Below, piece by piece: positions 1-13,064 of a stretch of DNA of 17,395 bases. The DNA is from an uncultured Bacillota bacterium (GTDB lineage Bacteria; Bacillota_I; Bacilli_A; Erysipelotrichales; Erysipelotrichaceae): the NCBI GenBank assembly GCA_900321955.1, contig ONXX01000007.1, forward strand, positions 1 to 17,395, read 5' to 3'. The position numbers and the translations under genes are program-made. Numbering within the stretch: the first letter of the stretch is position 1; every line of letters starts with the position of its first letter. The notes below the pieces were generated by a model, which was given only the letters and a program-made list of their open reading frames with translations, was not told the DNA's origin and made no database searches.

Positions 1-1609
1 CGGTCTCTTCCGAAGCCCGGTCAGTATATAAGGCGATCATCTGCAGGTATTCATCCAAAGAAGAATCCGGATAATCCTGCGAGTATTGTTTAATATCATC
101 CAAGAGAGACTTGATGTTTTCCAGACGCTCGGTCTCCCCGTCTTTTTCCAGCATCGTGCGGTAACCCGAATCATCCAATACTTCCTGTAAAAGCAGTTCC
201 AGATCACCGTTTTTCATATCTTCGCGCCACTTTTCCACCATGCGGACAAAGCGGTCAAAGGTCTCCTTGTTTTTCGGATAGAGGCCCTGTTTGATGACCT
301 CATACATCGAGATGCCCTTCTCCATCGCCATCGCCTGAATGGCATCGATGGTCTTGGGACCGATGGCCCGTCTTGGCGTATTGATGATTCTGACAAACGC
401 CAGATCATCTGCCCTGGTGATCATTCTGAGATAGGAAAGGATGTCCTTGACTTCCATGCGTTCATAGAAACGAAGACCGCCATAGATGACGTAATTGATG
501 CGGTTTTCAATCAGGACCTTTTCAACTTCTCTGGAAAGATAGTTGGCCCGATACAAAACCGCCATGTCCTTGTAGTTGTAACCATCGCCATGTAACTTCA
601 TGATCTGGCTGATCACATAGTTGGCCTCACCGGTCTCGGACATGCAGGTCTTGTGAATGATCTTGCTGCCATCGCCGTTCTTGGAGAAGAGTTCCTTATC
701 CAGTCTGGCCTTATTGTTCTTGATCAAAGAGTTGGCGCCGGAAAGGATATTGTTGGTGGAACGGTAATTCTGATTTAAGATGATGGTCTTGGTGTTTTCA
801 AAGTCCCGGTCAAAGTGGACGATGATGTTGACATCGGCACCGCGCCAGGTAAAGATCGTCTGGTCCGGATCGCCGACCACATAGACATTGTCATGAACCG
901 TACTTAAAAGTTTGATCAGCTTGTACTGCTCCCTGTCGACATCCTGGAACTCATCGACATGGATGTAGTGGAACTTGCTTGACCACTTCTCCAGAATTGC
1001 CGGGAAGAGTTCAAAGAGTCTCGTCGTAAATAAGATCAGATCATCGAAATCCAGGGCATAGAGCTGATGCAGGCGCTTGTCGTAATATTCATAGACTTTC
1101 GCCCGATTGACGATCTTAGGCTCACCATAGGCAAACTCCATGGCCTTGGCCGGATCGACGTTCATATATTTGTTGTTGGCGATGTAATCCAACATGCCGC
1201 CATAAGGGTATTCTTTCTTATCGATGCCGATCTCCTTGTAGGCCTCTTTTAAGATCTGACGCTGATCGTCCGCATCGATGACCGTAAAGTTTTTCGGATA
1301 ATTGAGGGCGGTGATATCTTCCGCCAATATGCGCATGCATAAAGAGTGGATCGTCGAGATATGACAGCCGGTACCATTATCTCCCAGCATGTCATTGATC
1401 CTCGTCTTCATTTCCCTGGCTGCCTTATTGGTAAAGGTGATGGCCAGGATATGATAGGGTTTTACCCCTTTTTGTTCGATCAGATAGGCAATGCGCATCG
1501 TTAAAACGCGGGTTTTACCGGAACCGGCACCCGCGATTATTCTGATATGTTTTGATTCATCAGTGACTGCAGCCTTCTGATTTTCGTTAAGCTGTGAATA
1601 AGTGATCAT
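1..1609 (-). CDS. pcrA: ATP-dependent DNA helicase PcrA/UvrD (C-terminus beyond window)
   Basis: This is a superfamily 1A DNA helicase of the UvrD/PcrA family, which unwinds DNA 3' to 5' in excision repair, plasmid replication and clearing of RecA filaments. About 536 residues are visible from the ATG at 1607-1609; the family is usually about 720-780 residues, so the C-terminal part lies left of the window. Visible motifs are Walker A GAGSGKT (about residues 27-33), motif Ia TFTNKAAREM, motif II DEFQD, motif III GDPDQTIFTWRGA and QNYRST. The reading frame is open all the way to the left edge. The start lies three bases after the stop of the AAA-CYTH gene, with only a weak ribosome site, which suggests translational coupling in one operon. 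PcrA rather than Rep or UvrD is inferred from the Firmicute context. Confidence 0.95.
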   Translation of the reverse strand, partial: MITYSQLNENQKAAVTDESKHIRIIAGAGSGKTRVLTMRIAYLIEQKGVKPYHILAITFTNKAAREMKTRINDMLGDNGTGCHISTIHSLCMRILAEDITALNYPKNFTVIDADDQRQILKEAYKEIGIDKKEYPYGGMLDYIANNKYMNVDPAKAMEFAYGEPKIVNRAKVYEYYDKRLHQLYALDFDDLILFTTRLFELFPAILEKWSSKFHYIHVDEFQDVDREQYKLIKLLSTVHDNVYVVGDPDQTIFTWRGADVNIIVHFDRDFENTKTIILNQNYRSTNNILSGANSLIKNNKARLDKELFSKNGDGSKIIHKTCMSETGEANYVISQIMKLHGDGYNYKDMAVLYRANYLSREVEKVLIENRINYVIYGGLRFYERMEVKDILSYLRMITRADDLAFVRIINTPRRAIGPKTIDAIQAMAMEKGISMYEVIKQGLYPKNKETFDRFVRMVEKWREDMKNGDLELLLQEVLDDSGYRTMLEKDGETERLENIKSLLDDIKQYSQDYPDSSLDEYLQMIALYTDRASEET

Positions 1610-1612
1610 TTT

Positions 1613-2716
1613 CTAAAACTTCTGTGATTTTGCCAAATAATAATTCTTGTAGTTGAGATCATCGGAAACATCCTTGAGGACGTTGATGTAATCCGGAATC
1701 TCCACCTGTCTGCCGTCGCTTGGCTGGTCGACAGTCAAAATGCCCTTGGAAGTATCGAAATCGAAGACTTCCAGTTTGAAGAACAGGTTCTTGTACATAA
1801 AGGAATAACGGTTCTTGTCGATGACATTGAATTCCGGATCGATCTGATGGAAGTAGTCTTTATACTGTCTCTCCGTCAAAACACGGTCAACCTTGACACG
1901 CTCATTGGAGGAAAGATAGTTGGCCTCCGCATAGGAATACATGGTCTCGCCGTTCTTTTCCTTGGCACGGATACGCCTCTCGTAGCCGTTGTCGGAAAGC
2001 AGATAGTATTGAACGATGTGGCTCTTTGAATAGCTGGTTTCTTCTTTCATGCGGTTCAAAACATCGTCGTTGACTTCCACCAGATAACGGTTGAACTTCT
2101 CGACCGGCTCGTTGTTGCTGTCGAGGTATTCGAAGACCGACTGAATCGCCTTGATCATCTTGACTTCAAATTCCGTCTCGTTGTCGATGATGACGCGGTT
2201 CGGATGATTCTTCCAGGACATCAAAGCCATATCGTCCATCGCTCTGGCCTCTTCGATCGTCTCGTAGCGGGCAGCGTTGTTGGCTAAGGTATAGGCTTCT
2301 TCCTTGCCCTTGGCAGCGGTGACCAGATGAATGACCATGTCATAGCGGTCATTGAGCTCTTCCGGCACCATATTAAAATCCTTGAGGATCTTGCGGAAGT
2401 CTTCCTCACCGACATAGGCCATATCATCGAGGATGCCGCGGTCGATAAAGATCAGAACTTTCTCCCCTTCGATCTCCTGGGCTGCTTTGTAGCAGAGTTC
2501 CTCTTTCTTAAGCTGCAGGTCGATGCAGTACTTCTGGAAATCATACATGCCCATCGTCGCCGGAGAGATGCCGCCGGAGATCAGGTCGGTCGCCGATTCG
2601 TGGTCAATAATGACCCGATAGCCACGGTCGGAAAATACAGATTGGGCACGGGAAGTAAACGTCGTCTTGCCGGAGCACGGACCACCTGTAAAAACAATGC
2701 GCTTAATCGTCTTCAT
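1613..2716 (-). CDS. AAA family ATPase fused to a CYTH-like domain
   Basis: A 367-residue protein with two parts. The N-terminal half is a small P-loop NTPase/kinase-like AAA_28 domain: Walker A GGPCSGKT at residues 11-18 and Walker B IFIDRG at 89-94. The C-terminal half (about 205-345) resembles the CYTH/triphosphate tunnel fold: KFNRYLV near the domain start, then charged strands YERRIRAKEKNG (255-266), RVKVDRVL and NRYSFMYKNLFFKLEVFDF. The classic N-terminal ExExK signature is not clearly present, so catalysis by this domain is uncertain. The same domain order is known from the TTD14 protein of insects; bacterial members are largely uncharacterised. The gene overlaps the upstream NUDIX gene by 14 bp, has a good Shine-Dalgarno (GAAGGAG) inside it, and is followed three bases later by pcrA. 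The domain call is firm for the ATPase, likely for CYTH; the substrate is unknown. Confidence 0.85.
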   Translation of the reverse strand: MKTIKRIVFTGGPCSGKTTFTSRAQSVFSDRGYRVIIDHESATDLISGGISPATMGMYDFQKYCIDLQLKKEELCYKAAQEIEGEKVLIFIDRGILDDMAYVGEEDFRKILKDFNMVPEELNDRYDMVIHLVTAAKGKEEAYTLANNAARYETIEEARAMDDMALMSWKNHPNRVIIDNETEFEVKMIKAIQSVFEYLDSNNEPVEKFNRYLVEVNDDVLNRMKEETSYSKSHIVQYYLLSDNGYERRIRAKEKNGETMYSYAEANYLSSNERVKVDRVLTERQYKDYFHQIDPEFNVIDKNRYSFMYKNLFFKLEVFDFDTSKGILTVDQPSDGRQVEIPDYINVLKDVSDDLNYKNYYLAKSQKF

Positions 2717-3275
2717 AATTCTCCTTCAGCTTCTTATTCAGCTTGGCATATATATGTTCACAAAACCATTTTTCACTCGGTTTTTCGATCGCTTCCGCAA
2801 GAGAAAACCAGGCAACGCCGCTGTTTTCATCTTCCTTGGCTCTGACAGCTTCTTCTTCATCTGCTTCCAGCAGATACGTCAAATTCAAATGCAGGTGAGA
2901 AGGAACAAAGTTCCCCCGTTTCATGTGGGCAAAGACCGGCAAAACCTCCAAAGAGAAGATCTGATCGCTGATCGGCCGCACACTTTTCACGCCTGCCTCT
3001 TCCCTTACTTCCTTTAAGGCAACAGCCAGACAATCCTCATTACCGTCACAATGACCGCCCAGCCAGGCCCAGGAATCATAGATCTTATGATAGGCCATCA
3101 AAACCTTATCTCTGTTCTTGTTGACCACCCAGGCGGAAGCCGTCATGTGTCCCAGTTCGTTCTCCCTGTAAAAGGCATCCTCATACATAGATAGAAAAGC
3201 CAGGATCGTTTTCCTGTCTTTCTCTTCCTGTATGTTGTAAGGCTGATAAGCCTCGATATCGGCCCTTACTTTCAC
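2703..3275 (-). CDS. NUDIX hydrolase
   Basis: A 190-residue NUDIX hydrolase, expected to cleave a nucleoside diphosphate linked to another moiety using a divalent metal. The NUDIX box spans residues 74-96 (G, five residues, E80, then KEVREEAGV); it matches GX5EX7REUXEEXGU except that the first Arg is Lys88. The start is GTG at 3273-3275: an in-frame TAA lies four codons upstream, inside the proposed -10 hexamer, and no in-frame ATG precedes it. There is no Shine-Dalgarno; TAAAAT stands exactly six bases before the GTG, so the mRNA may be leaderless. It is the first gene of the operon with the AAA-CYTH ATPase and pcrA. The substrate cannot be told from the sequence; a house-cleaning nucleotide role is only a guess. 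Confidence 0.9.
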   Translation of the reverse strand: MKVRADIEAYQPYNIQEEKDRKTILAFLSMYEDAFYRENELGHMTASAWVVNKNRDKVLMAYHKIYDSWAWLGGHCDGNEDCLAVALKEVREEAGVKSVRPISDQIFSLEVLPVFAHMKRGNFVPSHLHLNLTYLLEADEEEAVRAKEDENSGVAWFSLAEAIEKPSEKWFCEHIYAKLNKKLKENYEDD

Positions 3276-3281
3276 ATCACT

Positions 3282-3287
3282 ATTTTA
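3282..3287 (-). promoter_or_regulatory. -10 element TAAAAT of the NUDIX operon, six bases from the start codon
   Basis: On the minus strand TAAAAT occupies 3287-3282, followed by six bases and then the GTG at 3275. With the usual -12 to -7 placement the transcript would begin at the G of the start codon. No convincing -35 element is present. The whole divergent gap is only 36 bp. Confidence 0.55.
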
Positions 3288-3299
3288 CTACAAGCATGT

Positions 3300-3305
3300 T
3301 AAAAT
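3300..3305 (+). promoter_or_regulatory. -10 element TAAAAT of the methyltransferase gene, six bases from the start codon
   Basis: TAAAAT at 3300-3305 is followed by six bases (TTATTT) and the ATG at 3312. There is no Shine-Dalgarno. The -35 position (about 3277-3282) matches consensus poorly and falls on the opposing -10 element, so the two divergent promoters would exclude each other. Confidence 0.55.
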
Positions 3306-3311
3306 TTATTT

Positions 3312-4175
3312 ATGATTACGAGTGAAAACTTCAAAGATTATATCCTCTTGGATGCAGGAGACAAAGAAAAGCTCGAGAACTGGAAAGGCATCATTCTGCG
3401 CCGTCCCGATCCGATGGCCTTATGGCCCAAAACCAAGCCGGAATTATGGGAAAAAGCCGATGCCTATTACCACCGTTCCAATAAGGGCGGCGGCTATTGG
3501 GAATACAAAAAGAAGCTGCCGGAATCCTGGAATGTTTCCTATGAAAATCTCACCTTCAAGGTCTCACCCACCAATTTCAAACACACCGGATTGTTTCCGG
3601 AACAGTGTGCCAACTGGGATTTCATCAGGGAGAAAGTCAAAACTCGTAAGGATGCCAGAATCCTGAATCTGTTTGCCTATACAGGCGCCGCGACAATGGC
3701 ATCTGCCGGAGCCGGCGCCAAGGAAGTCGTTCATCTGGATGCTTCCAAAGGCATCAATGAATGGGCGAAAGAAAACATGAAGCTTTCCGGCCTGGAAGAT
3801 AAAACGATCCGTTTCATCGTCGATGACGCCCTCAAATTCACTGCCAGAGAAATACGAAGAGGCCGGAAATACGACGGCATCATCATGGACCCGCCATCTT
3901 ATGGCAGAGGACCGGACAATGAACTCTTCCGTTTTGAAGATAAGATCAATCCGCTTTTGGATAACTGCATGCAGTTACTCAGCGATGATCCATTGTTTTT
4001 CATCGTCAATACCTACACGACCGGCTATTCCTCAACCGTCATGTACAATACTATGTCTGAACAGGCAAAGCTCCATCATCTAAGCGGCCATATCGAGGCC
4101 GATGAGATCGGCATCAGGATCGATGAAAGCGACTACGTCCTTCCATGCGGTCAGACGACCAGGTGGTACAAGTGA
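3312..4175 (+). CDS. class I SAM-dependent methyltransferase (RlmI/YccW-like, rRNA-type)
   Basis: A 287-residue methyltransferase of the Methyltrans_SAM group related to RlmI/RlmK, which methylate 23S rRNA. The SAM-binding motif LNLFAYTGAAT is at 118-128, the acidic strand end HLDASKG at 141-147, and the motif IV DPPSYGRG at 193-200. The upstream HTGLFPEQCANWD segment is typical of the subfamily. There is no N-terminal PUA domain as in E. coli RlmI. Cytosine C5 enzymes of this group need specific cysteines that I cannot assign here, so the target base is open. It overlaps the pseudouridine synthase start by a GTGA quadruplet, so two RNA modification enzymes are translationally coupled. The start ATG has TAAAAT exactly six bases upstream and no ribosome site. 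Confidence 0.88.
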   Translation: MITSENFKDYILLDAGDKEKLENWKGIILRRPDPMALWPKTKPELWEKADAYYHRSNKGGGYWEYKKKLPESWNVSYENLTFKVSPTNFKHTGLFPEQCANWDFIREKVKTRKDARILNLFAYTGAATMASAGAGAKEVVHLDASKGINEWAKENMKLSGLEDKTIRFIVDDALKFTAREIRRGRKYDGIIMDPPSYGRGPDNELFRFEDKINPLLDNCMQLLSDDPLFFIVNTYTTGYSSTVMYNTMSEQAKLHHLSGHIEADEIGIRIDESDYVLPCGQTTRWYK

Positions 4176-4813
4176 AAGTCATCTTTGAAGACAACCACTT
4201 GCTGGTGATCGAAAAGCCAGTCAATGTACCTATGCAGGCCGATTCTTCCAAAGACGAAGATCTTCTGACGATGGCCAAGGCCTACATCAAGGAGAAATAC
4301 GACAAACCCGGTGAAGTCTACTTGGGACTTGTCCATCGACTGGACCGTCCGGTCGGCGGCGTCTGTGTCTTTGCCAGGACTTCCAAAGCGGCAGCCCGTT
4401 TAAGCAAGCAGATTGCCGATCATGAATTTCAAAAGACATATCTGGCTGTCGTGCAAGACCATGGCCTTTCAGAACGTGGTCACTTCGAAGACCTCCTCTA
4501 TAAAGATCCTAAGACCAATATGGTCAAAGTCGATCCCCGCGGCAAGAAAGCCTCTTTGGATTATAAAGTCTTAAAACGCAAGGATGATCTTGCCCTGGTG
4601 GAAGTCGACCTTCATACCGGCCGTTCCCACCAGATCCGTGTGCAGTTTTCTTCCCGCAATCACCCGTTATGGGGTGATCAACGCTACAACAAAAAAGCGA
4701 TCAAGGGGCAGCAGATCGCTTTGTGGTCACACCGCATTTGTTTCAAACACCCGATCTCCAAAGAAGAGCTCACCTTCACCAGCGAGATCGACCGTTATCC
4801 GTTCAATATTTAG
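4172..4813 (+). CDS. RluA-family pseudouridine synthase
   Basis: A 213-residue RNA pseudouridine synthase (uridine to pseudouridine in rRNA or tRNA). The catalytic motif HRLDRPVGG has its Asp at residue 58, followed by FARTSKAAARLS; the second conserved block is HTGRSHQIRVQF, with ALWSHRI near the C-terminus. It lacks the S4 RNA-binding domain, as in the short RluA/RluC-like Firmicute members. I chose the GTG at 4172-4174, which overlaps the preceding TGA as GTGA and has AGGTGG five bases upstream, over an in-frame ATG at 4145 that would add nine residues with no ribosome site. The protein then begins MKVIFEDNHLLVIEKP, the usual family opening. Its stop overlaps the convergent lipoprotein gene by four bases. 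Confidence 0.93.
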   Translation: MKVIFEDNHLLVIEKPVNVPMQADSSKDEDLLTMAKAYIKEKYDKPGEVYLGLVHRLDRPVGGVCVFARTSKAAARLSKQIADHEFQKTYLAVVQDHGLSERGHFEDLLYKDPKTNMVKVDPRGKKASLDYKVLKRKDDLALVEVDLHTGRSHQIRVQFSSRNHPLWGDQRYNKKAIKGQQIALWSHRICFKHPISKEELTFTSEIDRYPFNI

Positions 4814-6060
4814 TTATTTGATTTATACGCGATACATTGATCGCCAAGGAATATACCGAGTGCTTCGGTATATTTTTCTTTTGATTCGATATTGGAATAG
4901 GCGCCGGTAAACGTGCCTTTATCTAAAAACACCGCTGTCGGATAATTGGCCAGGCCGAAGTTGAAGAAATCTTCCGGCATCCTGCCTAAGACCGAAACCA
5001 CCGGACAATTGAAGCGCACACTCATATTCTTTAAGGCAAAGGAAGAAGATTCCAGCCCCTCCACCAGAATGACGATGTATTTCTCATCGCTTTCCTGCTT
5101 CATCAGATCATTGATGAACTCCACCTTCTCAGTCTCACTGTTGTCCCTCAAATACGTATAGAGAAGAACCAGTTTTTCATTTCCATAAACTGAAAAATCA
5201 TCGACCTCCGAATAGAAATTATCACCCTGTGGTGTGTTGATCGTTTCCAGATCAGCCCTCTTCCCCATCAGCTGATAGGTCAGCTGGGCCGTGTAATCGT
5301 CGTTATCGAGCGCTTCCAGTTTTTCCCGATTCTCTTTGCTTAAATCGTTTTTCAGATCATCGATGCTGCGGCTGATGCTTAATAGATCGTTGCCGTACTT
5401 GTCTTTCAGGGTACTTACATCAATGACTTCTTCAAAGCCCAGTGTATTGAGCATCGCAAAACTGTCTTCATTGATCTCCCCGACCGCATCAAATGTCACT
5501 TTACCGTCTTTATAAGTCAATAAGGTCGGATAGGATTTCAAAGCCAGGTTCTCCTTGATGAAATCTTTCAGATTCTCATCGCGGCAAAGAACGATCATGT
5601 TTTCCGGCACGGAAAGTCCTTCTTCTTCATATAAGGAAAGGACCTCTTCCCTTGTGCCGACATTGAAGTACTGAACAAAAGGATATTCAGCATCCTTTGC
5701 CAGATTTACCATCAAAGGAAGCTGTTTCTTGCAATGGGAACATTCCACCGAAACCACTTCCAGATAAAAGTCCTTCAGTTGACTGAAATCAACATCATTG
5801 TCGTTGATGTCTTTGACAATGCCCTCATAGACCGGCTTGCCCAGCATCTTGAACTGGTAGTTGGCAAAGTCGGCATTGCAGTTGGCCTTTTTGATCTTAT
5901 ATTTGAGATCTTCTTTCAGCTCGCCGAAAATAAAAACGTCCTTGACAGGATCGATGTAGTCGATCGTCTCCTGCGGGATGTTTTCTTCTTCTTTCTTTTC
6001 TTCGCTGCAGCCTGTAAAAAGAAGGCACAACAAAAATAAAGTCAGTATTTTACGTATCAT
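4810..6060 (-). CDS. lipoprotein with two thioredoxin-like domains
   Basis: A 416-residue exported lipoprotein: a short basic N-terminus, a hydrophobic stretch and lipobox LFTGC with Cys18, followed by a Glu/Lys-rich linker. The first thioredoxin-like domain (about 88-215) has the redox motif CSHC at 107-110 and a cis-proline at 178 (SYPTL). A second region (about 300-410) repeats the fold pattern, with a hydrophobic strand and NYPTAVFLDKG (Pro374), but has no CxxC, so it is probably structural or substrate-binding. It should act outside the membrane as a thiol reductase, isomerase or chaperone. Its ATG overlaps the patatin stop codon (ATGA), so the two are translated together. The two-domain architecture is inferred by eye from the motifs. 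Confidence 0.82.
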   Translation of the reverse strand: MIRKILTLFLLCLLFTGCSEEKKEEENIPQETIDYIDPVKDVFIFGELKEDLKYKIKKANCNADFANYQFKMLGKPVYEGIVKDINDNDVDFSQLKDFYLEVVSVECSHCKKQLPLMVNLAKDAEYPFVQYFNVGTREEVLSLYEEEGLSVPENMIVLCRDENLKDFIKENLALKSYPTLLTYKDGKVTFDAVGEINEDSFAMLNTLGFEEVIDVSTLKDKYGNDLLSISRSIDDLKNDLSKENREKLEALDNDDYTAQLTYQLMGKRADLETINTPQGDNFYSEVDDFSVYGNEKLVLLYTYLRDNSETEKVEFINDLMKQESDEKYIVILVEGLESSSFALKNMSVRFNCPVVSVLGRMPEDFFNFGLANYPTAVFLDKGTFTGAYSNIESKEKYTEALGIFLGDQCIAYKSNN

Positions 6061-6911
6061 TTGATGCCTAAAAGGGAGAAGATCTCTTCCTTTTTATTTT
6101 CCATGTCGTTATAGCCCAGATGGAAGAGCTCATCAAGATCTTCCCGGCTGCCGCCGAGTCTGGTGACCTTGGAGTGCTTGCTTGGATAGACGTAGACCGC
6201 TTCCTTCTTTTCTTCCAGGCTCTTGATCAGATTGATCTGTTTTTCATAGTTGATATGACGGATCCGATAATCTTCCGAGATGTTGTCGCATTGCGGATAG
6301 GTCTTCTTCATCAGCCAGACGATCGCCGGCTTGGCCGGTTTGCGCTTGTAGTCGCCCGGTTTGGTCGTGATGACCAGATGGCGGTTGCAGCCATCATCCA
6401 CGGACTTCTGTATCGGAATCATGTCCGTGATGCCGCCGTCCATCACTTCTTCTCCATTGACATTGACGATGACGCCCAAGATCGGCAAAGATGTCGAAGC
6501 TTCCAGCATCTTCATCGTGATGTCCTTGGTGGAATGATAGAGGGTCTTGCCCTGTGAGAGATGATAAAGACCGATATAGCCGTCTTTACAGTTTTTCAAA
6601 GGTGAAATGTCAAACTGATCTTCCACCGTTAAGATGTGATCGAAAAGAAAGTCATAATCGACGATCCTGCCGCAGCGTAAAAACGGACGGACACCGATGA
6701 TTCTGGGATCCGTGATCTGATTGACCGGCAGTTCATAGAGATTATCTTTTAACTTCATCAGGAAATTGGCCAGATGCACCGCCCCTGTGGAGATGCCGTA
6801 GGAAGAATCAAATTCGATGCCCTGATCGATCAGCCAGGTCAAAGCGCCGGCCGTATAGGCGCCGCGTAAACCGCCGCCTTCCAGTACCAATGAAGTCTTA
6901 ATTTTACTCAT
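6057..6911 (-). CDS. patatin-like phospholipase family protein
   Basis: A 284-residue patatin-like serine acyl hydrolase. The oxyanion loop EGGGLRGAYTAG is at 11-22, the nucleophile motif GISTG at 39-43 (Ser41) and the dyad aspartate in MDGG at Asp158. These are all the residues the family needs, so it should be active as a lipid acyl hydrolase, though the natural lipid is unknown; RssA and YjjU-like cytoplasmic members are the closest in style. No signal peptide is seen. It leads a two-gene operon with the thioredoxin-like lipoprotein (ATGA overlap). The start ATG has no Shine-Dalgarno but has TAAAAT six bases upstream and TTGCGA 17 bases further, indicating a leaderless transcript. Confidence 0.92.
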   Translation of the reverse strand: MSKIKTSLVLEGGGLRGAYTAGALTWLIDQGIEFDSSYGISTGAVHLANFLMKLKDNLYELPVNQITDPRIIGVRPFLRCGRIVDYDFLFDHILTVEDQFDISPLKNCKDGYIGLYHLSQGKTLYHSTKDITMKMLEASTSLPILGVIVNVNGEEVMDGGITDMIPIQKSVDDGCNRHLVITTKPGDYKRKPAKPAIVWLMKKTYPQCDNISEDYRIRHINYEKQINLIKSLEEKKEAVYVYPSKHSKVTRLGGSREDLDELFHLGYNDMENKKEEIFSLLGIK

Positions 6912-6917
6912 GACTTC

Positions 6918-6946
6918 ATTTTAGTCTTTCTATACTGTTTTCGCAA
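6918..6946 (-). promoter_or_regulatory. sigma-A-type promoter of the patatin operon
   Basis: On the minus strand, TTGCGA (6946-6941), a 17-base spacer and TAAAAT (6923-6918) are followed by six bases and the ATG at 6911. The predicted transcription start coincides with the start codon. Confidence 0.6.
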
Positions 6947-6980
6947 ACCATAATCCATGATCAATTATCCGCTTCTGCGG

Positions 6981-6986
6981 TAAAAT
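6981..6986 (+). promoter_or_regulatory. -10 element TAAAAT of the rhomboid gene, six bases from the start codon
   Basis: TAAAAT at 6981-6986, then AAGGAT, then ATG at 6993. The AAGGA sits one base from the ATG, too close to serve as a normal ribosome site. The -35 position (about 6958-6963, TGATCA) is weak. Confidence 0.5.
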
Positions 6987-6992
6987 AAGGAT

Positions 6993-7556
6993 ATGAGAAA
7001 AAAGAAGTTTTTTATTTATCTGAATGCGCCGATCACGATGAGTTTTGTCGTCATCTGTATCACGGCGTTAGTCCTGGACATGCTGACAAACGGAAGATCC
7101 ACCGTCTTAGTCTTTTCCACCTACGGTTCTTCCTGGCTTTCCCCATTAACCTATGTCAGGCTGATCTGCCACGTCTTTGGCCATGGCGGCGTCCAGCATC
7201 TGATTTCCAATATGCTATACATACTTTTATTAGGACCGATCCTGGAAGAAAAGTATCATGACCGTCTCATTACCGTCATCTTAACGACAGCCTTAGTGAC
7301 CGGCATCATCCACAATATCATTCAGCCACATGTCATGTTGTTGGGGGCAAGCGGTGTCGTCTTCTCCTTCATCCTCTTGGCTTCCATCACCGGAAAAGAA
7401 AAAGGCATCCCGATCACATTGATCCTGGTTGCCTTGTTATGGCTTGGTCAGGAGATCTACAACGGCATCATCTCGGCAGACAATGTCTCGCAAATCACCC
7501 ACATCATCGGCGGTATCTCCGGTGCTGTCTTAGGTATGATGTTCAAGAAGCGTTAA
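6993..7556 (+). CDS. rhomboid family intramembrane serine protease
   Basis: A 187-residue polytopic membrane protein with about six hydrophobic segments, the minimal rhomboid size. The catalytic serine is in GASG (Ser120) and the catalytic histidine in QITHIIGG (His170). The HxxxHxxHLxxN-like segment HGGVQHLISNML includes Asn73, which normally helps the oxyanion hole. The protease should cut single-pass membrane proteins within the bilayer; its substrate is not evident. No cytoplasmic or C-terminal extra domain is present. It diverges from the patatin operon and converges tail to tail on the small minus-strand gene, with no bases between the two stop codons. Confidence 0.93.
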   Translation: MRKKKFFIYLNAPITMSFVVICITALVLDMLTNGRSTVLVFSTYGSSWLSPLTYVRLICHVFGHGGVQHLISNMLYILLLGPILEEKYHDRLITVILTTALVTGIIHNIIQPHVMLLGASGVVFSFILLASITGKEKGIPITLILVALLWLGQEIYNGIISADNVSQITHIIGGISGAVLGMMFKKR

Positions 7557-7808
7557 TTACTTGCGGTAGTAACGGTAATAGGCTTCGTCCTTTGTCTCAT
7601 CAATTTCAACAGATTCTTCGTAAAGATAGAATCTGTTTTTCTTATACAGGTCGGCAAAATCCTTTAAGTCCAGAGAAAAGCGGCTTCCATTATAGTAGCG
7701 GAAGACCTTCTCCCCTTTTAAGACGAACTGGTCTTTGCCATCGCTTGTCACGATGTCGCCTTCCCTTAAATAGGAAAGGACTTCGTTCATATCTCTTAAG
7801 AGTTCCAT
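7557..7808 (-). CDS. small protein of unknown function, 83 residues
   Basis: I do not recognise this protein. It is mixed charged and aromatic, has no membrane segment, and contains EGDIVTSDGKDQFVLKGEKV, which looks like a short beta-rich module, and an acidic, tyrosine-rich tail (DEAYYRYYRK). The chosen ATG at 7806-7808 is four bases after the mntP stop; an in-frame ATG at 7853 would extend it 15 residues into mntP coding sequence. No strong ribosome site is visible, so coupling to mntP is likely. Its stop directly abuts that of the convergent rhomboid gene, leaving no space for a separate terminator. Confidence 0.7.
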   Translation of the reverse strand: MELLRDMNEVLSYLREGDIVTSDGKDQFVLKGEKVFRYYNGSRFSLDLKDFADLYKKNRFYLYEESVEIDETKDEAYYRYYRK

Positions 7809-7812
7809 AGTT

Positions 7813-8370
7813 TTATAATACGCCCAAACCTTCCAGAAGCGTTTTAATCCCAAGCAAGATCAGAATCACGCCGCCAAAGGCCGTCGCCTTATCCTTCAAC
7901 AATAAAGCTGCTTTCTTGCCCAAACGGTGGGCAATCATGCAGATGATGAAGGTGACGATGAAGATGATGAAACAGGACAGGTATGGCGAAATCTTTAAAA
8001 GCGGCAAGGTCACGCCGGCTGACAAGGCATCGATCGCCGTCGCAATCGACTCCAGAATCAAAACCTTCAGTGTGAATTCTTTCGATCCTTCCTCAATCTC
8101 TTCCTTGGCAAACGATTCTTTGATCATATTGATGCCAAGAATGGATAAAACGATCAGGACCACCCAGTGATCATAACGCTCAATATAATGCAAGAAAGGA
8201 TACAAGACCAGATAGCCGATCAAAGGCATCAGGCCCTGGAAAAAACCAAAAGAAAAAGATGCTTCAAACATCTGCTTTGGTCCATAGTTTTTATAACGGA
8301 TGCCATTGACGATCGACATGGCCATGGAGTCCATGGCTAAGGCAACCGCCAACATTAATACTTCTGACAT
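7813..8370 (-). CDS. mntP: MntP-type manganese efflux pump
   Basis: A 185-residue, six-helix membrane protein of the MntP (DUF204) family, which exports Mn(II). Two related halves are visible, each with an acidic intramembrane motif: ALAMDSMAMSIVNGI near the N-terminus and ESIATAIDALSAGVTLP in the middle; GFFQGLMPLIGYL is also typical. I start at the ATG 8368-8370 (MSEVLML). The ATG at 8382, four codons upstream, lies inside the TATAAT of a strong promoter and could not be on that transcript. Many Firmicute mntP genes carry a Mn-sensing yybP-ykoY riboswitch; there is no room for one here. It is probably co-transcribed with the small gene downstream. Confidence 0.85.
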   Translation of the reverse strand: MSEVLMLAVALAMDSMAMSIVNGIRYKNYGPKQMFEASFSFGFFQGLMPLIGYLVLYPFLHYIERYDHWVVLIVLSILGINMIKESFAKEEIEEGSKEFTLKVLILESIATAIDALSAGVTLPLLKISPYLSCFIIFIVTFIICMIAHRLGKKAALLLKDKATAFGGVILILLGIKTLLEGLGVL

Positions 8371-8380
8371 AACAGTATCC

Positions 8381-8408
8381 ATTATAAGTCAAAAACAACA
8401 TATGTCAA
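8381..8408 (-). promoter_or_regulatory. consensus sigma-A promoter for mntP
   Basis: On the minus strand, TTGACA (8408-8403), a 16-base spacer and TATAAT (8386-8381). Both hexamers are perfect. Transcription would start near 8374, leaving a leader of only about four bases before the ATG at 8370. The -35 box directly follows the T-tract of the preceding terminator. Confidence 0.8.
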
Positions 8409-8409
8409 A

Positions 8410-8443
8410 AAGAAAAAAACACTACCGCAGGCTGATGCGGTAG
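8410..8443 (-). terminator. intrinsic terminator of the GNAT gene
   Basis: On the minus strand an eight-base-pair stem (CTACCGCA at 8443-8436, TGCGGTAG at 8429-8422) with a six-base loop is followed by TG and seven T. The TAG stop codon of the acetyltransferase is the end of the 3' stem strand. Confidence 0.85.
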
Positions 8444-8892
8444 CGGAAAATATACTTCGTTTTTTCACCGATGGTATAGAGCGGATGGCCCGGCGGCACT
8501 TTCACCAGATCGATCAGTTCTCCATCCAGTTTCTTCAAGGTCTTATAGGAAGCGATGTTCTCCGGCGAACAAGTGATGATCAATTCATCCATGCCAAACT
8601 CCTTCTTGGCCACTTTAAACAAAACCTTGCAGGCATGATAGGCATAATTGTTGCCGCGAAAATTCTTTAAGATGTTGTAGCCGATGTGACCGTAATAAAA
8701 CATATCGCCTTCGACCGTTAAACGCAGGTCGATCGTACCGACCTTTTCCTTGTTTTCGTGGTTGAGCACATCGTAGTAGACTGTCGGAACGCCGTCATAC
8801 GCACTTCTTTCATCGACGCGGTAACGTTCCCTCAGATCAACGACATCTCCTTCGATGAGCTTACGGTTACTGAACCAATCAAAGAGTCCCAT
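8422..8892 (-). CDS. GNAT family N-acetyltransferase
   Basis: A 156-residue GNAT acetyltransferase using acetyl-CoA. The acetyl-CoA binding region is around GHIGYNILKNFRGNNYAYHA, a variant of the R/Q-x-x-G-x-G/A loop, and the later CSPENIASYKTLKKL segment matches the usual C-terminal helix with Asn contacting the substrate. The N-terminal MGLFDWFSNRKL is amphipathic. I start at the ATG 8890-8892: an upstream in-frame ATG at 8937 would run the coding sequence through the terminator of the preceding gene. The substrate is unknown. It stands alone between two terminators and has TATAAT seven bases before the start with no Shine-Dalgarno. Confidence 0.87.
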   Translation of the reverse strand: MGLFDWFSNRKLIEGDVVDLRERYRVDERSAYDGVPTVYYDVLNHENKEKVGTIDLRLTVEGDMFYYGHIGYNILKNFRGNNYAYHACKVLFKVAKKEFGMDELIITCSPENIASYKTLKKLDGELIDLVKVPPGHPLYTIGEKTKYIFRYRISLR

Positions 8893-8899
8893 CAAAAAA

Positions 8900-8928
8900 A
8901 TTATACAACGTAAAAAGCCTTCACTGAA
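8900..8928 (-). promoter_or_regulatory. promoter of the GNAT gene
   Basis: A perfect TATAAT lies at 8905-8900 on the minus strand, seven bases before the ATG at 8892, with a weak TTCAGT (8928-8923) 17 bases upstream, inside the loop of the preceding terminator. The transcript is predicted to be leaderless. Confidence 0.5.
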
Positions 8929-8934
8929 GGCTTT
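8912..8934 (-). terminator. intrinsic terminator of the 524-residue membrane protein operon
   Basis: A nine-base-pair stem (AAAGCCTTC and GAAGGCTTT) with a three-base loop and a five-T tract, 12 bases past the TAA at 8946. Confidence 0.85.
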
Positions 8935-8945
8935 CACTTTTTGCG

Positions 8946-10520
8946 TTAACGGATAAACGAAGCGATGCGACCGTCTTCATCTGCCATGACTTTGACAGTA
9001 TCACCTTGTGCGATGAAAGAAGCGGCCAGGTCGCCATCCGACATATCATACCAGTAGATCGTATTATCTTCGCTTAAAAGCAGGATGATCGTATTGCCGT
9101 TTTGAACGATGCTTCTCACTTCTGCAACAACAAAGCTCTTCTCTGCCTGTTCCTTGCCGGAGATCGAACCATCCTCATTGTATAACTTCAGATAGTTGCG
9201 ATACGCTTCTTCGACGCTCGTGCCGGTCGCCACATTCTGATAGTTTTCGTAACTGACAAAGGCATAGCTCTTAATCAGATTTGCCCCGTCGACCAGACCC
9301 ATGAAGTAGGTCGGAATGCCCTTGACGTTGACCATCGACGGGAAGATCGCCGTGTAATGGTACTGCTGCACCGCACCTTCGGCTGAACTTCTGGCGGAAT
9401 ATTCCTCGGCGCCCGCTCTTCTGACATAATCGATCGAACCATCGCGCAGATCCACATAGGCAAAGCCGACATTGGATTCGTCCTTGCCGACACTGGTCAC
9501 GCCGGTGTAGATGTGGACGTGATCATTAAACTGGACGTAGGCATAATCATCGGTAAATTCGACGATGCCCTTCTTGGAGAAGTTGAACAAGCCGTTTTCA
9601 TAGCGCTTGCTCTGGGAAAACTGATCGTAGATGACATAGACCGGATAGATATTGTCGACCCATTCCGGTGCACTTTCCTTATCGTAGTAGGTGCAAGCCC
9701 CATCCACCGGATCGACGATGTAGATGCCTTTGACATCCCTGGTCTTATCGACCCAGGTCACCTTATAGACCGGAGCGATCCAATACGGTTTGCCCTCATC
9801 ATCCAGTTCGAATTTGGCAGAACCGATCATTGCGAACGGATCATGGAAGAACAGATGACGGTCGAGATCATGGAAGAAGTAAGCACTCTTCATGTATTTC
9901 ATGCCTTCGGAGCGGACCAGCTTCGCTTCGCCGCTGTTGCAGTCCACTAAGACATAACCCGGTGTCGTCTTGGTCACAAAATATTTGAATAAAGAACCAA
10001 AGTCAATCGGTGTTACACGGCTCAGATCTCCGTCGACGGAAATCTGCGTCCAATCGGAACCCATCTCGTATTGGGAGACTTCATCGGAGCCCAAAGTACC
10101 AAAAACACGATCACCCAATTGGGCAGCGGTGTCCTTATCGACCAGCTGCACCTGGGTCTTGTCAAATTCCGGTACGGTCGCAAAATCGATCTCCGTAATC
10201 TTGGACTGGTTCTTATAGTTGCCTAAGCCGCCCGTATAAGGTGAACCAAGTAAGGTCAACGCCAGGAATAAAACCAAGACCACCGCCGGGAAAATCAGCT
10301 GCTTGGTCAGCGTCATCTTGCCAGTAAAGATCTTCTTGTTTCCGACAGTGCATAAAAACACCGACAGTAAGAAGATCGTCAATTCGAGTACAAAGCCACC
10401 CGAATGGATATTGAACGGTGTGCAGAACAAGAGCTGGAAGAATACCAGCAGAGCTACAGTGACCAGAATCAACAGGATCCCTCTGAATCCGATGCTTCCC
10501 TTCTTTTTTACATTTGTCAT
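8946..10520 (-). CDS. membrane-anchored protein of unknown function, 524 residues
   Basis: I cannot assign a family. Three hydrophobic helices are near the N-terminus (about 15-35, 43-61 and 74-92), followed by roughly 430 residues that should lie outside the membrane. That part is beta-rich with repeated PepSY-like or beta-propeller-like strands such as GYVLVDCNSGEA and GIYIVDPVDGACTYYD. The last 65 residues, around AEVRSIVQNGNTIILLLSEDN and GDTVKVMADEDG, look like an OB-type barrel. It is the last gene of the operon with the LURP-one-like and DUF1836 genes, with AAGAGG eight bases before its ATG and one base between it and the DUF1836 stop. A sensor or envelope role is possible but unproven. 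Confidence 0.8.
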   Translation of the reverse strand: MTNVKKKGSIGFRGILLILVTVALLVFFQLLFCTPFNIHSGGFVLELTIFLLSVFLCTVGNKKIFTGKMTLTKQLIFPAVVLVLFLALTLLGSPYTGGLGNYKNQSKITEIDFATVPEFDKTQVQLVDKDTAAQLGDRVFGTLGSDEVSQYEMGSDWTQISVDGDLSRVTPIDFGSLFKYFVTKTTPGYVLVDCNSGEAKLVRSEGMKYMKSAYFFHDLDRHLFFHDPFAMIGSAKFELDDEGKPYWIAPVYKVTWVDKTRDVKGIYIVDPVDGACTYYDKESAPEWVDNIYPVYVIYDQFSQSKRYENGLFNFSKKGIVEFTDDYAYVQFNDHVHIYTGVTSVGKDESNVGFAYVDLRDGSIDYVRRAGAEEYSARSSAEGAVQQYHYTAIFPSMVNVKGIPTYFMGLVDGANLIKSYAFVSYENYQNVATGTSVEEAYRNYLKLYNEDGSISGKEQAEKSFVVAEVRSIVQNGNTIILLLSEDNTIYWYDMSDGDLAASFIAQGDTVKVMADEDGRIASFIR

Positions 10521-10521
10521 A

Positions 10522-11073
10522 CTATTTACCTCTTAAACCCGACAGATTCTTTTCGATCTGTTTCATACATTTTCCCGACAGGTAGGCATAGACCATGACC
10601 TTTAAAGCCATGATCAGCTTTTCCTTGATCGTCTCCTCTTCATTAAAGGACATCTTTTCAATGCTTTGTTCAATATCGGCAAAGTTCAAAGAATTGTCAT
10701 CAATATTGCGCACCGCCTCACAAAAGCGATCGTACAACACCGCTTCCGAGACGATATCATCGCTCTCATCATCGGTGTCGCCGTTGATCAGCTGCATCAG
10801 TTCACCGATGTCTTCGATGTTCATGCAGTCCCTCAACACCGCGATCAATAAGATGCGGGAAAGATGTCTCTCATAATACTTCTTGTGATCCGGCCGCTGG
10901 ACAAAGCCTCGTTTCACCCAATTTTGGATCGTCGAAGTCTGTAAATTCGTGATCCGGCAGATCTGCGACAGAGATAAGCCGCCGGTAATCTCGATCATCG
11001 GCCGTAAAACCGAGAACGCATCTTTACTGTTACCATATTCGATATTGGTTCCCGGAATGATCTTGCCTGCCAT
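10522..11073 (-). CDS. DUF1836 family HTH protein (putative transcriptional regulator)
   Basis: A 183-residue DUF1836 protein, a Firmicute family with a MerR-like helix-turn-helix. The HTH covers about 33-60 (LSLSQICRITNLQTSTIQNW then VKRGFVQRP), followed by KKYYERHLSRILLIAVLRD and the acidic family signature INGDTDDESDDI. The C-terminal half is helical and could oligomerise. I start at the ATG 11071-11073, just after GAAGGAGG, instead of an in-frame TTG at 11091 that would overlap the previous gene. It probably controls its own operon or a nearby target; no operator can be named from sequence alone. Confidence 0.87.
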   Translation of the reverse strand: MAGKIIPGTNIEYGNSKDAFSVLRPMIEITGGLSLSQICRITNLQTSTIQNWVKRGFVQRPDHKKYYERHLSRILLIAVLRDCMNIEDIGELMQLINGDTDDESDDIVSEAVLYDRFCEAVRNIDDNSLNFADIEQSIEKMSFNEEETIKEKLIMALKVMVYAYLSGKCMKQIEKNLSGLRGK

Positions 11074-11083
11074 AGTGCCTCCT

Positions 11084-11566
11084 TCACGCAACTGCTGCTG
11101 CCTCTTTTTCCTTTATGTATTGATTTAAGGCGACGATCAGTAAAATGATCATCTCCTCATCGAATTCATCATAGATCTCGATCCCGTATTGCCTTGATAA
11201 GACAGGCCCCTTCTTATCGGCGATGGCAATGAGTTCTTCTTTTTCATTCAGGATGTCAAACTTTTCGCAGAAGGCACCCCCTTCAATGCGCCAGCCGAGT
11301 TCTGGAATGGATAGCTGCGTCGAAGAAAGAGAAGAATTGACTTCCAGGACGCCGATCAGATCGGCGCCGTAGAAGATCTCATAGGAATGGTGAAGCAGCG
11401 AGAAGCGGCTTATGACATGACCGATATTGACGTCATATTTGAATAAGTCGATTCGCGGCTCCACCATGTGTGAGTTCTGATAGCGGTAGACGACCTGATC
11501 TTCTTCATCATAGATCTTCCCGCTTGCCTGAAAGAGGTGTGCATCCTCTTCAAATGAATATCTCAT
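11084..11566 (-). CDS. LURP-one-related / Tubby C-terminal-like (YxjI-type) protein
   Basis: A 160-residue cytoplasmic protein resembling the LURP-one-related (YxjI) branch of the Tubby C-terminal superfamily: regularly spaced beta strands, LIGVLEVNSSLSSTQLSIP in the middle, GWRIEG, then DILNEKEELIAIADKK and a terminal hydrophobic helix EMIILLIVALNQYI that fills the barrel in this fold. These proteins may bind phospholipid or membranes; no enzymatic activity is known. It starts three bases after the stop of a 52-residue membrane protein and ends ten bases before the DUF1836 start, so it is an internal operon gene. Confidence 0.78.
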   Translation of the reverse strand: MRYSFEEDAHLFQASGKIYDEEDQVVYRYQNSHMVEPRIDLFKYDVNIGHVISRFSLLHHSYEIFYGADLIGVLEVNSSLSSTQLSIPELGWRIEGGAFCEKFDILNEKEELIAIADKKGPVLSRQYGIEIYDEFDEEMIILLIVALNQYIKEKEAAAVA

Positions 11567-11569
11567 AAA

Positions 11570-11728
11570 TTAATAATAATATCTTCTGTATCTTCTTGGC
11601 CTAAAAAGATAATACAGGAGAATGAACGGGCTTAACCTAAAGCCGATCTTTAAGACCAGCGACAGAATCGCCATCACAAACGATAAAACGATATAAAACA
11701 TAAATACAGACCATAATAACATTAACAT
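11570..11728 (-). CDS. 52-residue membrane protein with Arg/Tyr-rich tail
   Basis: A small ORF with a clear Shine-Dalgarno (GGAGG at 11742-11738, nine bases from the ATG). Residues 4-26 form one hydrophobic helix, then a lysine, a second shorter hydrophobic part (PFILLYYLF) and a strongly basic aromatic tail RPRRYRRYYY. The tail should lie in the cytoplasm next to lipid head groups. It lies between the 21-codon ORF and the LURP-one-like gene and ends three bases before the latter. No family recognised. The ribosome site and placement in the operon are the support; conservation was not tested. Confidence 0.72.
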   Translation of the reverse strand: MLMLLWSVFMFYIVLSFVMAILSLVLKIGFRLSPFILLYYLFRPRRYRRYYY

Positions 11729-11752
11729 TTCTAATTACCTCCATAAATTTCT

Positions 11753-11803
11753 ATCAGCAGACTTATTTCTGAGATATCAGCGGGCTGCCACAAAACCGCT
11801 GAT
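11753..11803 (-). promoter_or_regulatory. competing hairpins in the operon leader
   Basis: On the minus strand ATCAGCGG (11803-11796) pairs perfectly with CCGCTGAT (11783-11776), or, with one G-U pair, with CTGCTGAT (11760-11753). The first hairpin is inside the 21-codon ORF; the second partner lies three bases past its stop codon and ahead of the next Shine-Dalgarno. Confidence 0.45.
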
Positions 11804-11828
11804 CCATACTACATTGATTTGGTTCCAT
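11763..11828 (-). CDS. 21-codon ORF behind a consensus promoter; candidate leader peptide
   Basis: This short ORF (begins MEPNQCSMDQRF, ends GSPLISQK) has the best translation signal in the window, AAAGGAGGTGGG about five bases before its ATG. It is the first ORF on the transcript from the promoter at 11856-11884. It has two cysteines and no hydrophobic segment. Codons 9-16 contain one arm pair of an 8-bp hairpin, and an alternative partner lies just after its stop. It could be a regulatory leader or a functional small protein; the sequence does not decide. Confidence 0.55.
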   Translation of the reverse strand: MEPNQCSMDQRFCGSPLISQK

Positions 11829-11855
11829 AGATCCCACCTCCTTTATGGTAATTTG

Positions 11856-11884
11856 ATTATATCAGAGGTTCATATGACTGTCAA
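11856..11884 (-). promoter_or_regulatory. perfect consensus sigma-A promoter
   Basis: On the minus strand, TTGACA (11884-11879), a 17-base spacer and TATAAT (11861-11856). This is an exact match at ideal spacing and the strongest promoter in the window. Transcription would start near 11849 and lead into the 21-codon ORF and the operon down to 8946. Confidence 0.88.
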
Positions 11885-11918
11885 CATATAAAATAAAAGA
11901 ACTGAAACCAGTTCTTTT
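11885..11918 (-). terminator. intrinsic terminator of the phosphatase operon
   Basis: A ten-base-pair perfect stem (AAAAGAACTG and CAGTTCTTTT at 11918-11909 and 11904-11895) with a four-base loop, then ATTTTATA, six bases past the stop at 11924. It runs directly into the next -35 box. Confidence 0.82.
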
Positions 11919-11923
11919 GCACT

Positions 11924-12322
11924 TTAGAGCCTTTGAATCCCCTCGCAAAGCTGTTCATAGACTTCTTCAAAGCGGTCCGTATACCATGGATCATCGATAT
12001 CTCTGTCACAGAGCTTATGAATCTTATGTTTAGGATCATCGAGAATTCTTAGGATATTGGACATATTGTAGCTATCCATGACATAGATTTCATCAAAACG
12101 GTCGTAATCCGCCTTGGTGATCCGTCTTGCCCGATGGCGTCCATAAGGGATCCCATGACGGTCCAGACAGCGTTTTGCGCTTGGATAGATGTCATTCCCC
12201 TCTTCCTCATAGGAAACGGCAGCCGACTCACAATATAAGTCAGGCCGCATGGCCTTACATATATATTCCGCCATGACGCTCCTGCAGATATTGCCATGAC
12301 AAACAAAGAGTATCTTCTTCAT
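11924..12322 (-). CDS. low-molecular-weight protein tyrosine phosphatase
   Basis: A 132-residue LMW protein tyrosine phosphatase. The phosphate loop CHGNICRS (residues 8-15) gives the CX5R signature with nucleophile Cys8 and Arg14; the general acid is Asp111 in DPWY. All catalytic elements are present. The ATG at 12320-12322 places the loop at the usual distance from the N-terminus and has AAGGAAG upstream; an ATG at 12349 would add nine unusual residues. LMW phosphatases act on tyrosine kinases of capsule synthesis or on protein-arginine phosphate (YwlE); no such partner is near. It is the last of three genes before a terminator. Confidence 0.93.
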   Translation of the reverse strand: MKKILFVCHGNICRSVMAEYICKAMRPDLYCESAAVSYEEEGNDIYPSAKRCLDRHGIPYGRHRARRITKADYDRFDEIYVMDSYNMSNILRILDDPKHKIHKLCDRDIDDPWYTDRFEEVYEQLCEGIQRL

Positions 12323-12361
12323 CTTATTTTTACTTCCTTCTCTTGTCATCTTAACATTTGC

Positions 12362-12766
12362 TTATTTTGCATACTTTTCATAACACCATTTTGCGATCTT
12401 CTCCAATAGCTTTACCGGAAGCGGCTTGTCATAGGACAATCGGATCGTTCCCTTGCTGACGCTGTAATCCGAAAGTTCTTCCGCAAAGGCGGCTGTTGCT
12501 TCATCGCCCGGATAGATTCCCAGATGCGTCTTTGAAGCGGCGAAATGGATAATATTTCTGCCTTTCCAGTATGTCGGCATGGACCAGGAAATGCGTTCTT
12601 CCGCTTCAGGCAATGCGTTTTTGAATATGGTACGGATTTCCGTAAGTTTTGGCTGAATTCCTTCCTCCTGTGCAGCGATATATTCATCTATGCTTTGAGG
12701 CTTGACACAGTAATGATCCTGATTCTGTCTGACGAATTCTCTTCCGCATTTTGGACACTTCCACAT
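12362..12766 (-). CDS. zinc-ribbon plus DUF1801 (YdhG-like) protein
   Basis: A 134-residue protein. The N-terminal MWKCPKCGREFVRQNQDHYC carries Cys4, Cys7, His18 and Cys20, a probable zinc ribbon. The rest (about 25-134) is a DUF1801/YdhG-like domain: SIDEYIAAQ, RISWSMPTYWKGRNIIHFAA, HLGIYPG and the closing SYDKPLPVKLLEKIAKW. DUF1801 members such as YdhG/FrataxinFra have been linked to iron delivery, but that link is weak for this branch. The start at the ATG 12764-12766 follows AGAGGTG; that ribosome site overlaps the end of the preceding small gene. Confidence 0.85.
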   Translation of the reverse strand: MWKCPKCGREFVRQNQDHYCVKPQSIDEYIAAQEEGIQPKLTEIRTIFKNALPEAEERISWSMPTYWKGRNIIHFAASKTHLGIYPGDEATAAFAEELSDYSVSKGTIRLSYDKPLPVKLLEKIAKWCYEKYAK

Positions 12767-12771
12767 AATGA

Positions 12772-12963
12772 TCACCTCTTTATCCTGCAATACAGTGTGT
12801 AACTGCACCCGCCAATCGCCATATTCACAACGGCCAGTAACAACAACAAAGCTGTTATGTCATCATCGATTTGTACAGCAGCATCCACGATTCTTATCAC
12901 GAATCTTGAAACGATCAACATGATGATCAAGGTTGCTGCTACACATGCTGTCTTTCTCTTCAT
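12772..12963 (-). CDS. two-helix small membrane protein, 63 residues
   Basis: A hypothetical protein with basic N-terminus MKRK, a hydrophobic helix at about 6-24, a short acidic loop (QIDDD) and a second helix at about 37-58. No family recognised. Its end (AGG ATA AAG AGG TGA) doubles as the Shine-Dalgarno of the DUF1801 gene, whose ATG lies five bases past the stop, which supports it as a real first gene of the operon. GAGAAG lies only two bases from its own ATG, so its start is less sure. No convincing promoter was found in 12964-13064. Confidence 0.6.
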   Translation of the reverse strand: MKRKTACVAATLIIMLIVSRFVIRIVDAAVQIDDDITALLLLLAVVNMAIGGCSYTLYCRIKR

Positions 12964-13064
12964 TTCTTCTCAATAAATCTCCATGAATCTTCTTCATGAC
13001 ATTGCTCGCTATATGGATCGTCTTTCAGGAGCGGTCCCGCCACATCTGACTATGATTTTCGGGC

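Follow-up and report, generated by a model that had tools for sequence, protein, structure and literature searches.

A −10-like hexamer six bases before the start codon points to leaderless genes, some in tight divergent pairs, in ruminant-gut Erysipelotrichaceae

We analyzed a 17,395-nt stretch of DNA (hereafter the window) from an uncultured Erysipelotrichaceae bacterium of the phylum Bacillota (GenBank assembly GCA_900321955.1, contig ONXX01000007.1, positions 1–17,395), in which four genes carry the hexamer TAAAAT exactly six bases upstream of the start codon. They encode a NUDIX-domain protein, an S-adenosylmethionine (SAM)-dependent methyltransferase, a patatin-like phospholipase and a rhomboid-family protein, and are arranged as two divergent pairs whose start codons are separated by 36 and 81 bp (Table 1). 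These are four of the 17 open reading frames (ORFs) of at least 100 amino acids in the window, and within offsets 0–59 before those 17 ORFs TAAAAT is confined to offset 6. A fifth gene, encoding a GNAT acetyltransferase, has TATAAT followed by seven bases. An earlier note on this DNA had interpreted these arrangements as signs of leaderless transcripts, and reading the sequence confirms all five hexamers and spacings. It also bears out the reported lack of a usable Shine-Dalgarno (SD) motif at the four TAAAAT starts: an SD run of at least 5 precedes none of them (0/4; one has a run of 4), and no SD motif stands before the NUDIX GTG. The earlier note is silent on the two divergent pairs and on the recurrence of tight pairs in relatives. 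No Rfam family matches within the window at the gathering threshold.

Table 1. Genes, start-proximal hexamers and other features of the window discussed in the text.
Feature	Position	Strand	Support or remark
TAAAAT-AGTGAT-GTG upstream of NUDIX start	3275	(-)	Read from sequence
TAAAAT-TTATTT-ATG upstream of methyltransferase start	3312	(+)	Read from sequence
TAAAAT-GAAGTC-ATG upstream of patatin-like start	6911	(-)	Read from sequence
TAAAAT-AAGGAT-ATG upstream of rhomboid start	6993	(+)	Read from sequence
TATAAT-TTTTTTG-ATG (gap of 7 bases) upstream of GNAT start	8892	(-)	Read from sequence
NUDIX-domain gene, PF00293	2703-3275	(-)	GTG at 3273..3275; predicted transcript +1 at 3275
−10-like TAAAAT of NUDIX gene, six bases from GTG	3282..3287	(-)	Sequence, relatives, alignment
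Intergenic 36 bp, both divergent promoters (putative) back to back	3276..3311	.	Relatives and alignment
−10-like TAAAAT of methyltransferase gene; extended −10 TG at 3297-3298	3300..3305	(+)	Sequence, relatives
SAM-dependent methyltransferase gene, PF10672; predicted leaderless ATG	3312..4175	(+)	Pfam
Patatin-like phospholipase gene, PF01734; predicted leaderless ATG	6057..6911	(-)	Pfam
−10-like TAAAAT of patatin-like gene	6918..6923	(-)	Offset 6 in relatives
TTGCGA, −35-like, 17 bp upstream of patatin −10	6941..6946	(-)	9/12 consensus matches
−10-like TAAAAT of rhomboid gene	6981..6986	(+)	Sequence, relatives
Rhomboid-family gene, PF01694; predicted leaderless ATG	6993..7556	(+)	Pfam
GNAT acetyltransferase gene, PF13302; predicted leaderless or 1-nt leader	8422..8892	(-)	Pfam
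−10-like TATAAT of GNAT gene, seven bases from ATG	8900..8905	(-)	Sequence, relatives

We define the offset as the number of bases between a −10-like hexamer and the start codon, and selected genes by the hexamer alone. ORFs of at least 100 amino acids were counted from the first start after a stop, with a home-made overlap filter, and expected counts were obtained from 100 dinucleotide shuffles per sample. The enrichment over shuffled sequence that the earlier note had anticipated was found in four relatives: TANAAT stands at offset 6 before 16 of 366 ORFs in genome G001 (shuffle mean 1.04, maximum 4), 27 of 358 in G002 (1.24, maximum 6), 19 of 359 in G003 (1.47, maximum 7) and 20 of 163 in G007 (1.35, maximum 5). 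The offset-6 hexamer is not a product of chance; it precedes 62 of the 1083 long ORFs of G001–G003. A phylum sample of 13 genomes, comprising those off the family list plus G004 and chosen by list alone, has no peak at this offset (2/326 against 2.10 expected). Leadered genes should have their hexamers further upstream, and a broad second group is indeed present at offsets 18–44; it rises above the mean of offsets 10–17 in G001, G005 and the phylum sample, though not in G002. Before internal in-frame starts, offsets 6–7 are raised in G001 and G002, with similar numbers in the phylum sample. Raw pattern counts over 57 family genomes, repeats included, give 504 occurrences of TGNTATAAT-N6-ATG and 201 of the form with nine bases; genome by genome, the six-base form is the more frequent in 44, equal in 8 and the less frequent in 5. 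In one of these genomes, G045, 19 of the 25 matches listed are TGGTATAATTTAGCTATG, perhaps a repeated or mobile element carrying such a start layout.

Bacterial RNA polymerase usually prefers a pyrimidine at −1 and a purine at +1. A pyrimidine occupies −1 in 61 of the 62 offset-6 genes of G001–G003, as against about half of the other genes, and with G007 included the counts become 81/82 against 586/1164 (p 5e-22). This pattern, which is independent of the hexamer selection, reads as the −1/+1 signature of transcription predicted to start on the start codon itself. The same genes are almost devoid of SD motifs: runs of at least 5 are found in 1/16 (G001), 0/27 (G002), 0/19 (G003) and 0/20 (G007), that is 1/82 overall, compared with approximately 36–44% of the other genes in the samples, which agrees with the earlier note's proposal of two translation-start modes in one genome. 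Of the 30 offset-6 proteins scanned (23 of the 27 from G002 and 7 of the 16 from G001), 28 have Pfam matches, including PriA, LigA, RNase III, RimM, guanylate kinase, alanine racemase and RelA/SpoT. A terminator-like hairpin lies within 80 nt upstream of 19/81 offset-6 genes and 126/1162 others (p 0.002, suggestive only; genes with N upstream, 1 of 82 and 2 of 1164, are left out of this count).

The arrangement is conserved at the orthologous loci, whose starts were placed by tblastn and counted among the relatives listed; two loci (L016 and L017) are almost identical at the sites shown and one (L084) repeats another (L007). The 19 loci closest by methyltransferase are 75–85% identical in protein and come mostly from ruminant-gut metagenome-assembled genomes titled Erysipelotrichaceae. 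A GTG with the hexamer at offset 6 is kept before the NUDIX gene in all 19 near relatives, and TGn-TA[A/G/T]AAT-N6-ATG before the methyltransferase gene in all 22, three of which (L020–L022) lie outside the close group. Methyltransferase matches in the more distant loci L023–L046 begin at query residues 1–9, so this start codon is placed about right. The divergent NUDIX and methyltransferase genes are separated by 36 or 37 bp in the window and in each of the 19 loci holding the region. A start could be assigned for the patatin-like gene in 16 close relatives, of which 15 have offset 6 and one has offset 7; the offset-6 hexamer is absent from three outside relatives, among which L021 also lacks an SD motif, whereas in L020 and L048 one candidate start is preceded by such a motif. 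Of 16 relatives, 14 have AATAAT instead of TAAAAT at offset 6 before the rhomboid gene, and two (L008 and L010) have offset 7. For the GNAT gene, 11 relatives were compared: the hexamer is at offset 6 in four of them and at offset 7 in five, and two have neither. By eye, a terminator-like hairpin with its T-run (window 8900-8935, minus strand) runs directly into the GNAT TATAAT, a layout also seen by eye in several relatives.

Taken together, these data argue that the offset-6 genes have sigma-A-type promoters whose −10 element is separated from the start codon by six bases and which yield leaderless mRNAs, a reading to which we assign a probability of about 0.9; the earlier note's leaderless transcripts from a sigma-A-like −10 are thus very likely, given the enrichment, the −1 pyrimidine and the conservation. 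Sigma-A polymerase would bind the −10, open the DNA and start at the seventh base after it. With the −10 ending six bases before the start, transcription would therefore begin on the first base of the AUG or GUG and produce an mRNA without a leader, which would be translated from its 5′-terminal start codon rather than through an SD interaction, with 70S or initiator-tRNA-loaded ribosomes initiating. We infer the 5′ ends, the sigma factor and this route alike. The sequence itself provides the exact spacing that would put +1 on or near the start codon, the enrichment in relatives, the conservation, the missing SD motif and the −1 pyrimidine. The transcription-start part of the scheme thus draws on sequence statistics and the translation part on other bacteria, where initiation on mRNAs without a leader, from a 5′-terminal start codon by the 70S or the IF2 route, is described as established (PMC6431027).

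Some transcripts might instead be near-leaderless, with leaders of 1–3 nt. Offset 8 in G001 and offsets 7 and 8 in G002 exceed the mean of offsets 10–17, the GNAT gene sits at offset 7, and three of the five offset-7 genes in G002 have a G before the ATG. At offset 6, however, the seventh base, where transcription canonically starts, already belongs to the start codon, and at offset 8 a pyrimidine precedes the start in 15/15 genes of G001 and G002, 4/4 of G003 and 1/2 of G007, which makes a start on the codon probable for these genes too. We regard short leaders as unlikely, although they are the best placed of the alternatives. Because offsets 6 and 8 together account for 23/366 ORFs in G001, 35/358 in G002 and 23/359 in G003, we estimate that roughly 5–10% of genes, one in twenty to one in ten, appear leaderless (background not subtracted).

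Another explanation is that the hexamer acts as an A/T-rich translation enhancer within a normal leader, a form of non-SD initiation as in Bacteroidota, and that transcription starts further upstream. The A/T-rich upstream regions, the weak −35 matches and a promoter-like match upstream of the NUDIX gene would suit this explanation. The exactness of the spacing would not; nor would the TG extension of the methyltransferase hexamer, kept in 22/22 near relatives though TG is uncommon genome-wide, or the −1 pyrimidine in 81/82 genes, which befits a transcription start and not an enhancer. Moreover, a 36-bp gap is too short for two leaders unless these begin inside the opposite gene. We consider an enhancer very improbable.

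Taking the first start after a stop could in itself have produced the enrichment, TAAAAT and TAGAAT carrying an in-frame stop at offset 6. Such an artefact accords with the share of TAA/TAG hexamers there (33/62) and with the lack of a clear TATAAT peak in G003 (5 at offset 6 and 5 at offset 25), but is contradicted by controls: stop-free TATAAT alone peaks clearly at offset 6 in G001, G002 and G007 (8, 12 and 13), TAAAAT is found 4 times at offset 6 in G001 and 8 times in G002, compared with a single case per genome at offset 9, which is likewise in frame, and the same method gave 2 observed against 2.1 expected on the phylum genomes.

The same analysis bears on the TAA of the hexamer, which the earlier note had described as in frame at each site and as a built-in stop. 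The in-frame TAA is present, as any hexamer with a six-base gap to the start codon stands in frame; its status as a selected feature is unsupported, since TAA/TAG hexamers are not clearly more frequent at offset 6 than at offsets 18–60 (33/62 against 87/216 in G001–G003; Fisher p 0.08) and the first-start-after-stop rule favours them. The in-frame TAA looks like a by-product.

Several observations weigh against leaderless initiation at these sites or against its generality in the family. All enrichment statistics are drawn from relatives' genomes, and one of these, G003 (assembly JAFRBQ), contains two different copies of the methyltransferase locus (L017 and L018), so that this bin may mix two species. 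The trait is patchy, being strong in G001–G003 and G007, weak in G005 (6/371 against 1.08 expected, shuffle maximum 4) and not seen in the G016 sample (1/151 against 0.52); a pooled family sample of 20 genomes at 20 kb each, with contigs picked among the matches listed and one stretch shared with each of the G007 and G016 samples, gave 4/337 against 1.23, equal to the shuffle maximum. These three results weaken any family-wide claim. By eye, methyltransferase homologues further out (L023–L045) are without the offset-6 hexamer. The −35 region is poor, with a mean match to TTGACA at 17 bp of only 2.1–2.2 of 6, which is still the highest among spacers of 12–23 in G001 and G002. In the window, −35/−10 matches as good as that of the patatin-like gene are near chance (6 found against 5.2 in shuffles); its −35-like position reads TTGCAC in many relatives (by eye). 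A TG extension accompanies 9/43 offset-6 hexamers of G001 and G002 and 23/120 hexamers further upstream, and is thus not enriched. For the rhomboid gene, 11 of 16 relatives have an alternative in-frame start, a TTG six codons upstream, over which we took the ATG as favoured. For the NUDIX gene, an alternative promoter-like match inside the methyltransferase gene (3364-3337, minus strand; 10/12) outscores the offset-6 one and would give a leader of approximately 55 nt; by our reading of the alignment, 10 of the 19 sequences keep the −10 of this match intact.

The tight divergent arrangement recurs in relatives. Start codons lie 11–45 bp apart in 11/39 divergent pairs of G002, 8/45 of G001, 8/35 of G003 and 7/25 of G007; the corresponding figures are 1/39 in the phylum sample, 4/65 in G005, 6/41 in the pooled family sample and 1/20 in G016. 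TANAAT stands at offset 6–8 on at least one side of these tight pairs in 8/11 (G002), 2/8 (G001), 5/8 (G003), 5/7 (G007) and 1/6 (pooled family), and is missing from all tight pairs of G005, G016 and the phylum sample. It does so on both sides in 3/11, 0/8, 4/8 and 1/7 of the tight pairs of G002, G001, G003 and G007, respectively; hexamers on both sides are thus a recurrent feature of G002 and G003 and uncommon in the other samples, a comparison blurred by the home-made gene calls. Examples from G002 are a guanylate kinase/RlmA-like pair separated by 34 bp and a YceD-like protein (below the Pfam cut-off) facing a nucleotidyltransferase across a 22-bp gap with the core ATTATATAAT. At L150 (G002:C10:176216-176243), this palindrome would give each divergent gene a −10 six bases from its ATG. 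The exact 22-bp symmetric pattern was found at 9 places in 7 of 392 genomes (reversed control, 0), too rarely to be a family trait. An identical 38-bp gap shared by G001 and G002 lies between the two ORFs of a divergent pair.

In the window, the NUDIX and methyltransferase hexamers are 12 bp apart and each putative promoter lies over the other's −35 region, so that a polymerase on one should cover the other, and two polymerases probably could not use both simultaneously. The same 36-bp layout is present at L021:9870-9907, where it faces, instead of the NUDIX gene, a 714-amino acid gene matching the window helicase. We take the two to be UvrD/PcrA-like. In the window (1609-3312), the helicase is the third gene behind the promoter, in the order NUDIX-ATPase-helicase. 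Since the geometry is the same and the first gene different, the predicted promoter appears to have been kept while the gene behind it was exchanged, in either direction.

Bidirectional promoters with symmetric −10 elements were reportedly described by Warman et al. in 2021. In such promoters, overlapping −10 sequences give two divergent starts (PMC10268837, PMC12825309), which are 7–25 bp and most often 18 bp apart (PMC10268837). The G002 22-bp gap with its predicted divergent starts from overlapping −10s resembles them, and some relatives' pairs with 20–23 bp between start codons would fall within this range, by prediction only. The window pairs differ: predicted starts are 37 bp apart for NUDIX/methyltransferase, where −10 lies over −35 and no −10 is shared, and 82 bp apart for patatin/rhomboid. 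The word "leaderless" is absent from the main text of both papers.

Leaderless genes are not foreign to Bacillota, and the earlier note's view that they are not usual there was too strong: approximately 9% of mRNAs are reported as leaderless by RNA-seq in Streptococcus pyogenes, S. agalactiae and S. pneumoniae, largely conserved between species (PMC6431027), and leaderless genes are predicted in Lactococcus-Streptococcus, Oenococcus-Leuconostoc and Mycoplasma (PMC3160421). Reported figures are lower in enterococci (<1%; PMC7724050), and amount to 15 candidate genes in Clostridioides difficile (PMC7438776) and nine transcripts in Mycoplasma gallisepticum (PMC4245973). The streptococcal cases belong to the same phylum but to another order and were mapped by RNA-seq, whereas ours are predicted from sequence; divergent pairs do not appear to be the subject of that work (PMC6431027). 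The closest likeness is to the "TA-led" genes of Zheng et al. 2011 (PMC3160421), with TAtAAT approximately 12 bp upstream, no SD motif and SD-led genes alongside. Here the first T lies exactly at −12, and the hosts are ruminant-gut Erysipelotrichaceae, while the Firmicutes treated there are Lactobacillales clades and Mycoplasma; the string "Erysipelo" does not occur in that paper's main text. The listing of Erysipelotrichia among SD-using classes (PMC10783764) fits the other genes here. Our searches of open-licence papers yielded no report of leaderless genes or mapped starts in Erysipelotrichaceae or Clostridium innocuum. Leaderless initiation itself is known; the lineage and the tight divergent leaderless pairs seem to be new.

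For these organisms, we tentatively suggest that leaderless starts might serve genome compaction: some 20–40 bp gaps between divergent housekeeping genes would consist of nothing but two interlocked −10s and two six-base discriminators. A single site would then give rise to either of two leaderless mRNAs but not to both at once, and could stay in place as a unit while one flanking gene is swapped. The interlocked divergent leaderless pair may merit a study of its own. Gene callers that rely on SD motifs may misplace such starts, and leadered and leaderless initiation are reported to respond differently to some antibiotics (PMC9581028). Because the trait is patchy, orthologues such as the patatin-like gene, with its SD motif before a candidate start in L048 and L020, could be used to trace how leaderless starts are gained and lost. 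The tight divergent pairs, for their part, would offer a small natural system in which to study how polymerases at two promoters exclude each other.

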